A DNA stretch of 64,000 bases from Parafrankia discariae (GCF_000373365.1 NZ_KB891137.1:23099-87098); one strand, 5' to 3'; positions 33,792 through 46,629 are shown, counted from the first letter of the stretch. Translations and numbers: made by a program. The notes: a model not told the origin generated them from the sequence alone.

Positions 33792-36700
33792 CTACCGTGT
33801 CGCCGCGACGTAGTCCAGGGTGCCGGAGTACGTCCCGGAGGAGACGAAGGGGATGTCGATCGAGTAGTCGTTGCTGATCGCGTCCCCGCCCGGCGCGGAC
33901 GGGTCGTCCTGGGTGTGCACCGTCGCCGCGGCGGTCTCCGACAGCGGCTGGAAGGCCGTGGACCCACTCTCCCGGACGGACATCTCCCCGACCGGGATCG
34001 CGCTCCCACCGCCGCCACCACCGGCGGCTGGCGTGAGGGCGGGCTGGCCGGCCTGGACGGAGACCGCGTACCCGGCGTCGCTGTTCGTCGTGACCGTCAT
34101 CGTGACGATCCCGTCCCGGGCCGCGGTGGTGTCCGGCTGGCCGGCCAGGGTGAACGCGGGGGTCAGCTCGGTGAGGGTCAGGAACTGCGCCTCCAGGGCG
34201 GTGGTGACGCCGCAGCCGGGCTCGGTGCCCGTGCCGGGGCAGGTGCTGCCGGGCGCCGGTGAGCTCACCCGGTTCGTCAGCGACGCGCCGGCGGTCGCGT
34301 CGTCGTCGACGGTCACGGTGAACGTGATGACGACGCTCGCGCCGACCGCGAGATCCCCGGTCCAGGTGAGGATGGGCGCCGAGTAACCGAGGACGCCCGA
34401 GCTCGCGGTGGCGTCGGCGTTGTAGGCGGCCGAGCCGAGCACGCCGCTGAGGTCGTCGGTCACCGCGATGCCGGTGTAGGGGCTCTCACCGCCGTTGGTG
34501 GCCGTGATCGTGTATCGGACGGTCGAGCCGACGACCGCGCCGGTCCGGTCGGCGGTCATCGCGATCCGCAGGTCCGGGGTCAGGATCGCGGTGGTGGTCG
34601 CGCAGGCCGCCACCGCGCCACCGGCGCCGTCACCGCCTCCGCCTCCGGCACCGGCACCGGAGCAGGTCGAGCCGGGCGTCGTGGAGACGACCCGGTTGAC
34701 CGCGCTGTGGTCGCCGCCGCCGGGCAGCGTCGTGGTCACCGAGTAGGTGACCGTCGCGGTCGCGCCGACCGGCAGGTCGCCCGTCCAGGTCAGGTACCGC
34801 GCGGTGCGGGTGACGCCGCCGGTGCTGGCGGCGGCGTCGGCGTTGTACACCGCGTCGTCGAGGACGCCGGAGAGGTCGTCGGTGAAGGAGGCCCCCAGAT
34901 ACGGGCTCTGCCCGCTGTTGGTGACGGTGACCGTGTAGGCGATCGGGCTGCCGCCCACGGCCACCGGGCTGCCCGTCCCGGTGTCCGCCGACTTGGTGAT
35001 CGTCAGTGCCGGGATCAGGACGTCGACGGCGGCGGTGCAGTCGGCGGGGTCGTCCGGGGCTCCGGGGCAGGTGCTGCCGAGCTCCGCGGAGCGCACGACG
35101 CCGCGCAGCGAGCCGTCACCGTGGTAGGGGTCGGCGACGGTGACCGCGAAGATGATCGTGGCGCTGGCGCCCGGGGCGAGGTCACCCGTCCAGGTCAGGA
35201 CGGGTGCCTGGTAGCTCAGGGTGCCGGCCGTCGCGGTGGCTCCGGGGTTGAGCGTGGCGTCGTTGACCACCGCGGCCAGGTCGTCGCGCACCACGACGCC
35301 GGTGTACGGCGTCTGGCCGCTGTTGGTCACGACGACGGTGTAGCCGACCGTCCCGCCGGGGGTGACCTCGGTGGCGTCGGCGAAGGTACGGATGTCCAGG
35401 CCGGGGGTCAGGGACGTGACCACCGCGGCGCAGCCGGGCGCACCGCCGCCGCCACCACCGGCGCCACCGGCCGGGCAGCCGCCGCCCCGGGCCGCCGTGA
35501 CCGCGGCGAGGGCGATGACCTTGTCGCCCAGGTCGGGCCGGTTGACGGTGAACGAGGCGGAGACGACCGCGGACTCGCCCGGGTCGAGGTCACCGGTCCA
35601 GGTGAGGCCGTCCTGGTCGAGGCGCAGCGAGCCGGAGGTCGTCGTCGCGTCGCCGTTGTAGACGGCGTCGTCGAGCACGCCGTCGAGCAGCGCCGTCACC
35701 TCGGTGCCCTGGTAGGGCAGGGTGCCGGCGTTGCTGATGGTGACGGTGAACTGGACGGTGTCACCGGGGGCCGCCGCCGAGGCGCTCGCCGAGCTGACGA
35801 CTCGCAGCTCGGTGACCGGCAGGTCGACGGAGCAGCGCCCGTCGCCGCCGCCGGCCGCGCAGTTCGTCCCGGGGACGGCCGAGGTGGCGACGGCGGAGAG
35901 CACATGGTCCCCGGTGTCCGGGGTGTCGACCGTCACCGAGTAGGTGATCACCGTGGACGCCCCGGGGGCGAGCGCCCCCGTCCAGGTGAGCGTCGAGCCG
36001 GTGACCCGCGCGGTGCCGGACGTCGCCGTCACGTCCCCGCGGTAGGTCGCGTCGTCGAGCAGGCCCGCCAGCGAGTCCTGGACGGCGGCCGCGGGGAAGG
36101 GGATCTGCCCGGTGTTCGCCACCTGGAGGGTGAAGGTGACGGCCTCGCCGGGCGCGGCGCCGGCGGTCCCCGGGCCGGCCGGGCTCGCGCTCCGGCTGAC
36201 GGTCAGGCCCGGGGTGAGGACGACGACGGACACGGCGCAGCCCGGGCTGCCGCTGGCCGGCGGGCAGCCGCTGCCCGGCTCGGCCGAGGAGACGCTGTCG
36301 ACGAGCAGTTTGTCGCCCGGGTCGGGGTCGCGGGTCCGCAGCGAGTAGGTGATGACCGCGGCGGCGCCCGGCGCCAGGTCGCCCGTCCAGGTCAGCGCCT
36401 GGCCGGCGAAGGTCACCGCGCCGGCCGTGGCGGCCGCGTCGCCGGGGTAGACGGCGTCGTCCAGGGAGCCGGCCAGCGAGTCGGTGACGACCGCGCCGGT
36501 GTACGCGGTCTCGCCGGTGTTGGTGACGGTGACGGTGTACCCGACCGTCCCGCCGGGGACGGTGAACGTCCGGTCGGCCTGCTTCACGATCGACAGGCCG
36601 GGCAGCAGCACCGGGACGGACGCGGCGCACGCCGGGCCGGGCGAGCCGACGGCGCAGTCGGCGCCCGGGGCCGCGGTGGTCGCCACGCTGGTCAGGACCC

Positions 36701-45534: not shown

Positions 45535-46629
45535 GTGACACGCCACCACCCCGGATTCGGGCGCAGAACGGCGCTCGCCGTACCAGTCCTCGTTTCGCTG
45601 CTGCTCTCCGCCGGCTCGGGAGGCGTAGCGGCCGCGGCCCCGGGAGCGGCCCCGGGAGCGGCTGACCCGAAACGGCCGGCGTTCTCCCTCTCGGTGAGCC
45701 CGACCAGAATGATCGTCGCCCCGGAGGACACCGACCAGGACCAGAAGTTCGTGGTGACCAACAGCGGTACGGAACCGCTCGAGCTCGAGGTGAAAAGAGC
45801 GGGCTTCACCGCCAACCGGGACGGCGCGCTGACCCTGGTCAAGGAGAAGACCGAGTTCTCGGCGGTCGACTGGCTCACGGTGAGCCCGGTACGGTTCCAG
45901 CTCGCCCCGGGCGCCCGCCAGACGGTGCTGAGCCACATCGCCATGCCGACCCACCCGGAACCGGGCGATCATCACGTCGCGCTCCTCTTCACGGTGCCCG
46001 CGGCCAAGGACGGGTCGGGGGTCCGGCTCAACCGGGGCATCGCCGCGCCGCTGTACATCACCGCGCCCGGCCGCATCGACGACAGCGTCCGGGCGATTGG
46101 CCTGCACACGCCGTCCTTCGCGCTGCGCGGCCCGATCGACCTCACCGCCGCGTTCACCTCCACCGGCACGGTGCACCGTGACTTCCGCGGCCCCGGTGGT
46201 GTCCTCAAGGCCCACGTGGACGGCCGGGAGGTCGCCTTCCCCGACTTCACCGTCGGCCGCGGCGCCGACCGGGAGGTGACCGCACGGTGGGCGGACCCGC
46301 CCCTCATGTGCCTGTGCCGGGTAACGGTCACCGTCCCCGGCGCCGCGGGGAAGCCGCAGGAGATGACCGCGACGATCCTCGTGTTCCCGGTGCACCTGGC
46401 GGTGGCCGCGCTCGCCGCGCTCGCCGCGCTCGCCGGGCTCGGCCTCCTCGTCCGGCGCCGCTACCGGGCCCGGGTGCGGGCGGCCGCCCGCGCGCTGCGG
46501 GAGCGGGAGGACGCGCTGGCCGGCGCCGTGCCCAGGCCGCGCTCCGGCGCGCACGACGCGGACACCGGCACCGACATCGGCAGCGGTGTGAACGTCGGCT
46601 CGCCGCCGGCGGCCCGGGAGGACTCCTGA
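45535..46629 (+). CDS. DUF916 / PapD-chaperone-like protein with C-terminal membrane anchor
   Basis: 364 residues. Signal peptide (RTALAVPVLVSLLLSAGSGG), then two Ig-like halves. The first resembles DUF916/PapD-type chaperones: FSLSVSPTRMIVAPEDTDQD, QKFVVTNSGTEPLELEV, WLTVSPVRFQLAPGARQTV, PEPGDHHVALLFTVPA. One membrane helix (VHLAVAALAALAALAGLGLLV, ~285-305) and a basic cytoplasmic tail follow. In Firmicutes, DUF916-DUF3324 proteins with the same anchor layout are the partners of WxL surface proteins. The GTG at 45535 has GGAGAG seven bases upstream. It lies 192 bases after the small protein gene, probably cotranscribed, and is inferred to bind or present it and the giant. Confidence 0.75.
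   Translation: MTRHHPGFGRRTALAVPVLVSLLLSAGSGGVAAAAPGAAPGAADPKRPAFSLSVSPTRMIVAPEDTDQDQKFVVTNSGTEPLELEVKRAGFTANRDGALTLVKEKTEFSAVDWLTVSPVRFQLAPGARQTVLSHIAMPTHPEPGDHHVALLFTVPAAKDGSGVRLNRGIAAPLYITAPGRIDDSVRAIGLHTPSFALRGPIDLTAAFTSTGTVHRDFRGPGGVLKAHVDGREVAFPDFTVGRGADREVTARWADPPLMCLCRVTVTVPGAAGKPQEMTATILVFPVHLAVAALAALAALAGLGLLVRRRYRARVRAAARALREREDALAGAVPRPRSGAHDADTGTDIGSGVNVGSPPAAREDS

Follow-up and report, generated by a model that had tools for sequence, protein, structure and literature searches.

A conserved actinomycete locus that joins a DUF916/WxLIP-family, PapD-like protein to a giant lectin protein: a probable divergent branch of the WxL/WxLIP surface systems

Introduction

Does Parafrankia discariae carry a counterpart of the WxL surface-protein complex of Firmicutes? 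The question was raised by four genes at positions 33792-46629 of a 64,000-nt stretch, here called the window, of the 7.9-Mb draft genome of this member of the Frankia family. The initial annotation had described there a giant secreted protein, a membrane-anchored protein with a DUF11 domain and a transmembrane (TM) helix (DUF11-TM protein), a small secreted protein and a DUF916/PapD-like protein, and all four were present, the first two on the minus strand and the other two on the plus strand (Table 1). The giant ends in the same domain that makes up most of the small protein, hereafter the shared domain. The DUF916-like protein is called the partner.

WxL proteins have been described as almost confined to Bacilli, where their clusters hold small, large and DUF916 genes (PMC9772566, PMC10599100). 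The sandwich of WxL is predicted to be completed by a strand that WxLIP contributes (PMC10599100), and a structure of the WxLIP-WxL complex is available in the Protein Data Bank (PDB; 9i25). We think it rather probable that the Parafrankia locus represents a new, divergent branch of the WxL/WxLIP systems, conserved among actinomycetes: a chaperone-pilin-like adhesin system of the Gram-positive cell surface that displays the giant lectin protein by β-strand complementation.

Results

Conservation of the gene set among actinomycetes

Scanning of 84,980 species genomes with an alignment of the shared domain gave 43 loci. They span at least 10 genera, among them Frankia, Nonomuraea, Herbidospora, Acrocarpospora, Streptosporangium, Sphaerisporangium, Actinomadura and Actinoallomurus; further loci came from Micromonospora, Plantactinospora, Actinokineospora, Labedaea, Kribbella and Subtercola, and from Marmoricola, Jatrophihabitans and Acidimicrobiaceae metagenome-assembled genomes. 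In Frankia relatives the set often forms one strand-consistent series of small, DUF916-like, giant and DUF11-TM genes. A DUF916 gene of the window type adjoins the small or the giant gene in 28 of the 43 loci. Most loci with no visible DUF916 gene are those in which the giant extends beyond the DNA examined, and the clear loci without one were L113, a truncated copy, and L120, from Labedaea.

In an even sample of 394 genomes of the class, the shared domain was found in 14 and the window-type DUF916 protein (at least 381 bits) in 12, all of them within the 14 (Fisher p 4e-21, uncorrected for phylogeny). This p value overstates independence because most of the positive genomes belong to one family, so the spread of the 43 loci over genera is the better argument. 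Co-occurrence of the gene set in other actinomycetes had been set beforehand as a test of the initial annotation, and it was found strongly, both in the 43 loci and in 12/12 class genomes.

The partner is a DUF916/WxLIP homologue with a PapD-type motif

By profile-profile comparison (hhalign) the partner matched actinobacterial DUF916 at a probability of 99.9-100 and Firmicutes DUF916-DUF3324 at 81-91, with reversed controls below 1. In a whole-genome search, a profile made from window-type sequences alone picked up ordinary DUF916 in a further 87 genomes at 1e-5 to 7e-21, and several of these matches coincide with Pfam PF06030 marks. There was a wide gap in score: window-type DUF916 proteins reached at least 381 bits and all other DUF916 proteins at most 75 bits. 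The AF2 model of the partner (pLDDT 92.6) was closest among solved structures to the Enterococcus faecium WxLIP structures 9i25_C (Z 14.0) and 9i1y (Z 13.4), followed by many PapD chaperones (Z 11-13). The partner is, by profile and by structure, a true DUF916/WxLIP homologue. Single-sequence scans of the partner and of the small protein against Pfam and NCBIfam gave no match. Pfam PapD_N found no match anywhere in the source genome, and by sequence the partner is a DUF916 protein.

PapD uses its Arg8 to anchor the pilin by the C-terminal carboxylate. The partner sequence V-S-P-T-R-L-V-I was placed by hhalign on A-L-G-A-T-R-V-I-Y of FimC, which holds Thr7-Arg8, at a probability of 21 and a score of 32 (reversed control 12.7), while ordinary DUF916 proteins reached probabilities of only 0.1-0.4 against PapD. 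The T-R motif was present in 28/28 window-type members with a complete N-terminus (24 by pattern and 4 that read V-T-P-T-R) and in 8/9 chaperones of E. coli K-12, as against 0/28 ordinary actinobacterial and 0/8 Firmicutes DUF916 proteins. A conserved basic residue also lies in the sequence [IV]-x-[ILV]-N-R-G ahead of the last strand of domain 1, and it may act as the counterpart of Lys112. Window-type DUF916 proteins also share an invariant Cys-x-Cys, located in their second Ig domain.

The shared domain of the small and giant proteins

The end domain of the giant and the body of the small protein share 45% identity over 130 amino acids (E 2.4e-26), far beyond chance, and these two are the only copies in the source genome. 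The domain is about 137-140 amino acids long, and its last strand is the exact end of the small and giant proteins alike. In more than 50 relatives the invariant residues were G-Y (G57-Y58) and the C-terminal D-T-Y-S-x-x-L-D/N-Y (L-D/N-Y142). The small proteins have in addition a conserved TTANVxVxxSITL directly after the signal peptide. The two Trp-x-Leu motifs of WxL are absent from the shared domain, in which Tyr replaces Trp, and Pfam WxL (PF13731) matched none of 54 members at E ≤ 1. The best Pfam hint was DUF4402 (best E 5e-4, 4 members), which was too weak for an assignment and was rejected.

The AF2 model of the shared domain, made from 54 sequences (pLDDT 91.5, pTM 0.80), is a β-sandwich with its first strand starting at residue 20. 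Among solved structures its best match was TLP-1b (Z 9.2), which we know by its PDB title alone; the Csu, Fim and Ecp pilins followed at Z 7-8.3, and the TasA fibre 8aur was also matched. Where the matches were to assembled pilus rods, the matched region included N-terminal residues 4-17. As modelled, the shared domain looks like a donor-strand pilin or a subunit of a TasA-like fibre.

Relation of the shared domain to WxL

A WxL-like domain is encoded next to DUF916 in many actinobacteria. A profile of these actinobacterial domains finds Firmicutes WxL at E 1e-6 to 1e-18 for most members, and the profile-profile probability is 98.6. The shared domain alone did not rise above permuted controls against Firmicutes WxL in the profile-profile comparison. 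Against actinobacterial WxL it gave a weak match (probability 7), yet in register, and against all WxL the probability was 52. In the alignment with actinobacterial WxL, G-Y-x-V of the shared domain stands on G-W-x-L/V, the first WxL motif, and the C-terminal Gly/Asp-Thr-Tyr...Leu strand is also matched.

An intermediate family of Frankia, which we call YxL, consists of proteins of 390-435 amino acids encoded directly before a DUF916 gene (loci L145-L147), and it matched the shared domain at a probability of 95.5. When the two were combined in one profile, the probability against WxL was 64-77, and that of the shared domain against WxL plus YxL was 89; none of 200 permutations matched. Controls for these comparisons reached at most 2, and unrelated and reversed families at most 1. 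The combined profile reached only 1.8 against Firmicutes WxL alone, so the link to WxL runs through actinobacterial WxL. These profile comparisons make it likely, if not beyond doubt, that the shared domain is remotely homologous to WxL. As the Trp motifs, when looked for, were not found, we class the domain as no more than a possible member of WxL.

WxL-like C-terminal domains beside DUF916 are widespread in Actinomycetota, as seen in many loci (L045-L077). The source genome itself has an ordinary DUF916 gene and a WxL-like partner apart from the locus studied here (L148, 1807-2994 and 2837-3592), and Nonomuraea (L086, 3-19167) has an ordinary WxL/DUF916 locus within 20 kb of a window-type one. 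Metallophosphoesterase-like proteins with a C-terminal WxL-like domain adjoin DUF916 in L059 (2-1273) and L061 (2079-3296), which agrees with PMC12537917, where DUF916 is mentioned in actinomycete neighbourhoods, including DUF916/metallophosphatase.

The giant protein and the DUF11-TM protein

The domain content given for the giant in the initial annotation held good, but its description as a single gene did not, as the frame is broken in the assembly. The lectin domain matched PF18483 at E 2.3e-5 in the window copy and at 5e-8 in the best relative; TIG was found at E 0.003, with two FN3 and three He_PIG (Ig) domains and exactly 15 DUF7927/DUF11 repeats. The frameshift, one extra C in a run of five (G5 on the plus strand), splits the gene into open reading frames (ORFs) at 43320-35761 and 37475-33792. 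Eight relatives keep the giant as one ORF of 3137-3192 amino acids (about 3,150), and the break is therefore either a sequencing error or a recent lesion. A programmed frameshift was ruled out, as the relatives encode the giant in one frame.

The DUF11-TM protein is probably a second membrane component. Its homologue was present in 28/43 related loci.

Table 1. Features of the window and YxL-type proteins of Frankia relatives. Positions are those of the window unless a locus is named.
Feature	Position	Strand	Content or basis
Giant secreted protein	33792..43320	-	signal peptide, L-type lectin, TIG, 2x FN3, 3x He_PIG, 15 DUF7927/DUF11 repeats, C-terminal shared (WxL/pilin-like) domain
Shared domain of giant, exact C-terminus	33795..34205	-	alignment to small protein
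C5 run (G5 on plus strand), frame break of giant	37527..37531	-	one extra C
L-type lectin-like head of giant, N-terminal	42151..43158	-	PF18483 match
Membrane-anchored DUF11 protein	43569..44390	-	signal, DUF11 (E 1.4e-10), TM helix
Small secreted protein	44803..45342	+	signal peptide, conserved 16-18 residue N-terminal extension, shared domain up to C-terminus
DUF916/WxLIP-family, PapD-like protein (partner)	45535..46629	+	signal, two Ig-like domains, C-terminal TM helix; invariant S/T-P-T-R and C-x-C
YxL-type domain protein (GYTLA ... ITYTV)	L145 2359-3531		directly before DUF916 gene
YxL-type domain protein (GYTLA ... ITYTV)	L146 1971-3143		directly before DUF916 gene
YxL-type domain protein (GYTLA ... 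ITYTV)	L147 1284-2591		directly before DUF916 gene

Beyond the locus, ARAGORN called a tRNA-Glu (CTC) at 47171-47256, antisense within a cytochrome P450 gene (46655-48091, minus strand); this is possibly a false call.

Discussion

According to the initial annotation, the locus is either a remote homologue or a functional analogue of the WxL complex and uses a domain without the Trp. This proposal is supported by the strong co-occurrence, by a partner that belongs to the WxLIP family by profile and by structure, and by a shared domain remotely linked to WxL. Of the checks suggested for the shared domain, profile-profile comparison linked it to WxL through an intermediate family and left it at control level when it was set alone against Firmicutes WxL; the fold comparison placed it closest, among the matches listed, to chaperone-usher pilins and TasA-like fibres, which had not been foreseen, with WxL absent from those matches.

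A PapD-like partner and a pilin-like domain occur here together, and given the precedents of WxLIP/WxL and TapA/TasA, strand complementation offers the simplest mechanism common to all of these. The membrane-anchored partner would act as a PapD-type chaperone or anchor on the outer face of the membrane, where it would supply an edge strand to the shared domain, whose Ig-like fold is taken to be incomplete, and would hold the free C-terminus of that domain with the conserved T-R arginine. The giant lectin adhesin would thereby be folded and tethered at the surface, with its 15 DUF11 repeats spanning the envelope. The small protein may cap or connect the assembly, with the conserved extension at its N-terminus as a possible donor strand to a next subunit.

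The locus is like the WxL/WxLIP (Csc) clusters of Firmicutes (PF13731, PF06030/DUF916, DUF3324) in that a small domain-only protein, a large adhesin with the same end domain and a two-domain DUF916 partner with a C-terminal TM helix are clustered. Unlike in those clusters, Tyr stands for Trp, the domain has about 140 amino acids (WxL 160-190), the giant has a DUF11 stalk and a DUF11-TM gene is added. The closest competitor to strand complementation, tentative as it is, is a plain WxL-type wall-anchoring module, in which the shared domain would itself bind the wall, through peptidoglycan or another polymer, and the partner would only stabilise the domain, with no pilus-like chemistry. The DUF916 homology of the partner, the remote WxL homology of the shared domain and the content of small, large and DUF916 genes, as in the WxL clusters (PMC9772566, PMC10599100), would all fit such a module, but the missing Trp motifs do not, nor does a partner that is nearer to PapD than other DUF916 proteins are, both in profile probability (21 as against 0.1-0.4) and in its T-R motif.

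The PapD-like features raise a second alternative, which we hold to be doubtful: a true usher-less donor-strand pilus, in which the small protein would polymerise through its N-terminal extension, the giant lectin adhesin would sit at the tip and the partner would be a membrane-bound chaperone. The locus does resemble chaperone-usher pili (PapD/FimC/CsuC, FimA/CsuA-B, FimH-type lectin adhesins) in the modelled PapD-type fold and the T-R (Arg8) motif of the partner, a pilin-like model of the shared domain, a giant with a lectin head and a pilin-like tail, which is the layout of a FimH-type tip adhesin, and subunits that end exactly at the C-terminal strand. Chaperone-usher subunits end exactly with their last strand. 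The conserved extension after the signal peptide and the fold matches to TLP-1b, the TasA fibre and chaperone-usher pilins, with residues 4-17 included in the pilus-rod matches, also favour a pilus. A precedent exists in TasA/TapA (PMC10151520, PMC9674648), as TapA donates a strand to TasA in a Gram-positive (PMC10151520). These Bacillus biofilm fibres are like the system described here in being donor-strand fibres of a Gram-positive with a chaperone-like partner, and 8aur was among the fold matches; unlike it, TapA is not a PapD/DUF916 protein and there is no lectin giant, and the fold match is weak. Against a pilus stand the lack of an usher match in the source genome and the length of the giant, far in excess of an ordinary tip adhesin; nor does the small protein have to be abundant. 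The locus also differs from chaperone-usher pili in lacking a Pfam PapD match and in having a membrane-anchored chaperone and a Gram-positive host. A broader form of this idea, which we regard as speculative and rather improbable, would make the locus an usher-less Gram-positive chaperone-pilin system and an evolutionary intermediate between PapD/pilin chaperone-usher pili and WxL/WxLIP; in it the DUF916 protein, PapD-like, membrane-bound and equipped with the Arg8 motif, would use donor-strand exchange to build small pilin-like subunits into a surface fibre or cap, on which the giant lectin adhesin is displayed.

Convergence, in which an unrelated Ig-like domain without WxL homology came by coincidence to lie beside a PapD/DUF916-like protein, would agree with the absence of Pfam WxL matches (0/54 members) and with the control-level result against Firmicutes WxL, but we consider it unlikely, as the partner is homologous to DUF916 without doubt, the YxL family is encoded next to DUF916 and resembles the shared domain in profile, and the combined profile reached 64-77 against WxL where unrelated controls stayed at or below 1.

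Several observations weigh against a WxL/WxLIP-type adhesin system working by strand complementation, the reading that we prefer. The pilin-type matches of the shared domain (Z 7-9) are middling, and by the caution of the tool itself such values can reflect a common arrangement. The solved WxL chain 9i25_A was not among the 50 matches listed for the shared-domain model, and profile comparison of the domain with E. coli pilins gave no signal (probability 0.2). The usher PF00577, detected in the E. coli positive control, had no match in the source genome, so any polymerisation would have to proceed without one. The structure predictions are models of single chains. Barring a sequencing error, the frameshift in the giant may also leave this strain without a working system.

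The initial annotation knew of no such system in high-GC actinomycetes. DUF916 with ordinary WxL-like partners is common there, so the novelty lies in the variant and not in the presence of DUF916/WxL in actinomycetes as such. Ordinary actinobacterial DUF916 loci likewise place DUF916 beside a protein with a C-terminal WxL-like domain; they differ in forming a separate branch (at most 75 bits), in partners with W-x-L/V and not Y in the first motif, and in usually having no giant DUF11 protein. The window-type DUF916 protein is also set apart from the sampled DUF916 proteins by its PapD-like T-R motif. In the literature searched, no paper was found on DUF916 or DUF11-domain proteins in Frankia or on actinobacterial WxL proteins as a subject, nor any description of this branch. 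The components come from known superfamilies; the branch has Tyr for Trp, the PapD-type arginine, the giant DUF11 lectin and the fourth, DUF11-TM gene.

A divergent branch of the WxL/WxLIP partnership is conserved among actinomycetes that live in soil or in association with plants, and its PapD-like anchor has kept a motif of the pilus chaperones. How WxL proteins are anchored is unsettled in the literature. If strand complementation is indeed its mechanism, it would join chaperone-usher pili, WxL/WxLIP and TasA fibres, which are usually treated apart, and would provide a directly testable adhesin for Frankia-type bacteria, in which surface lectins could matter in plant-root contact.

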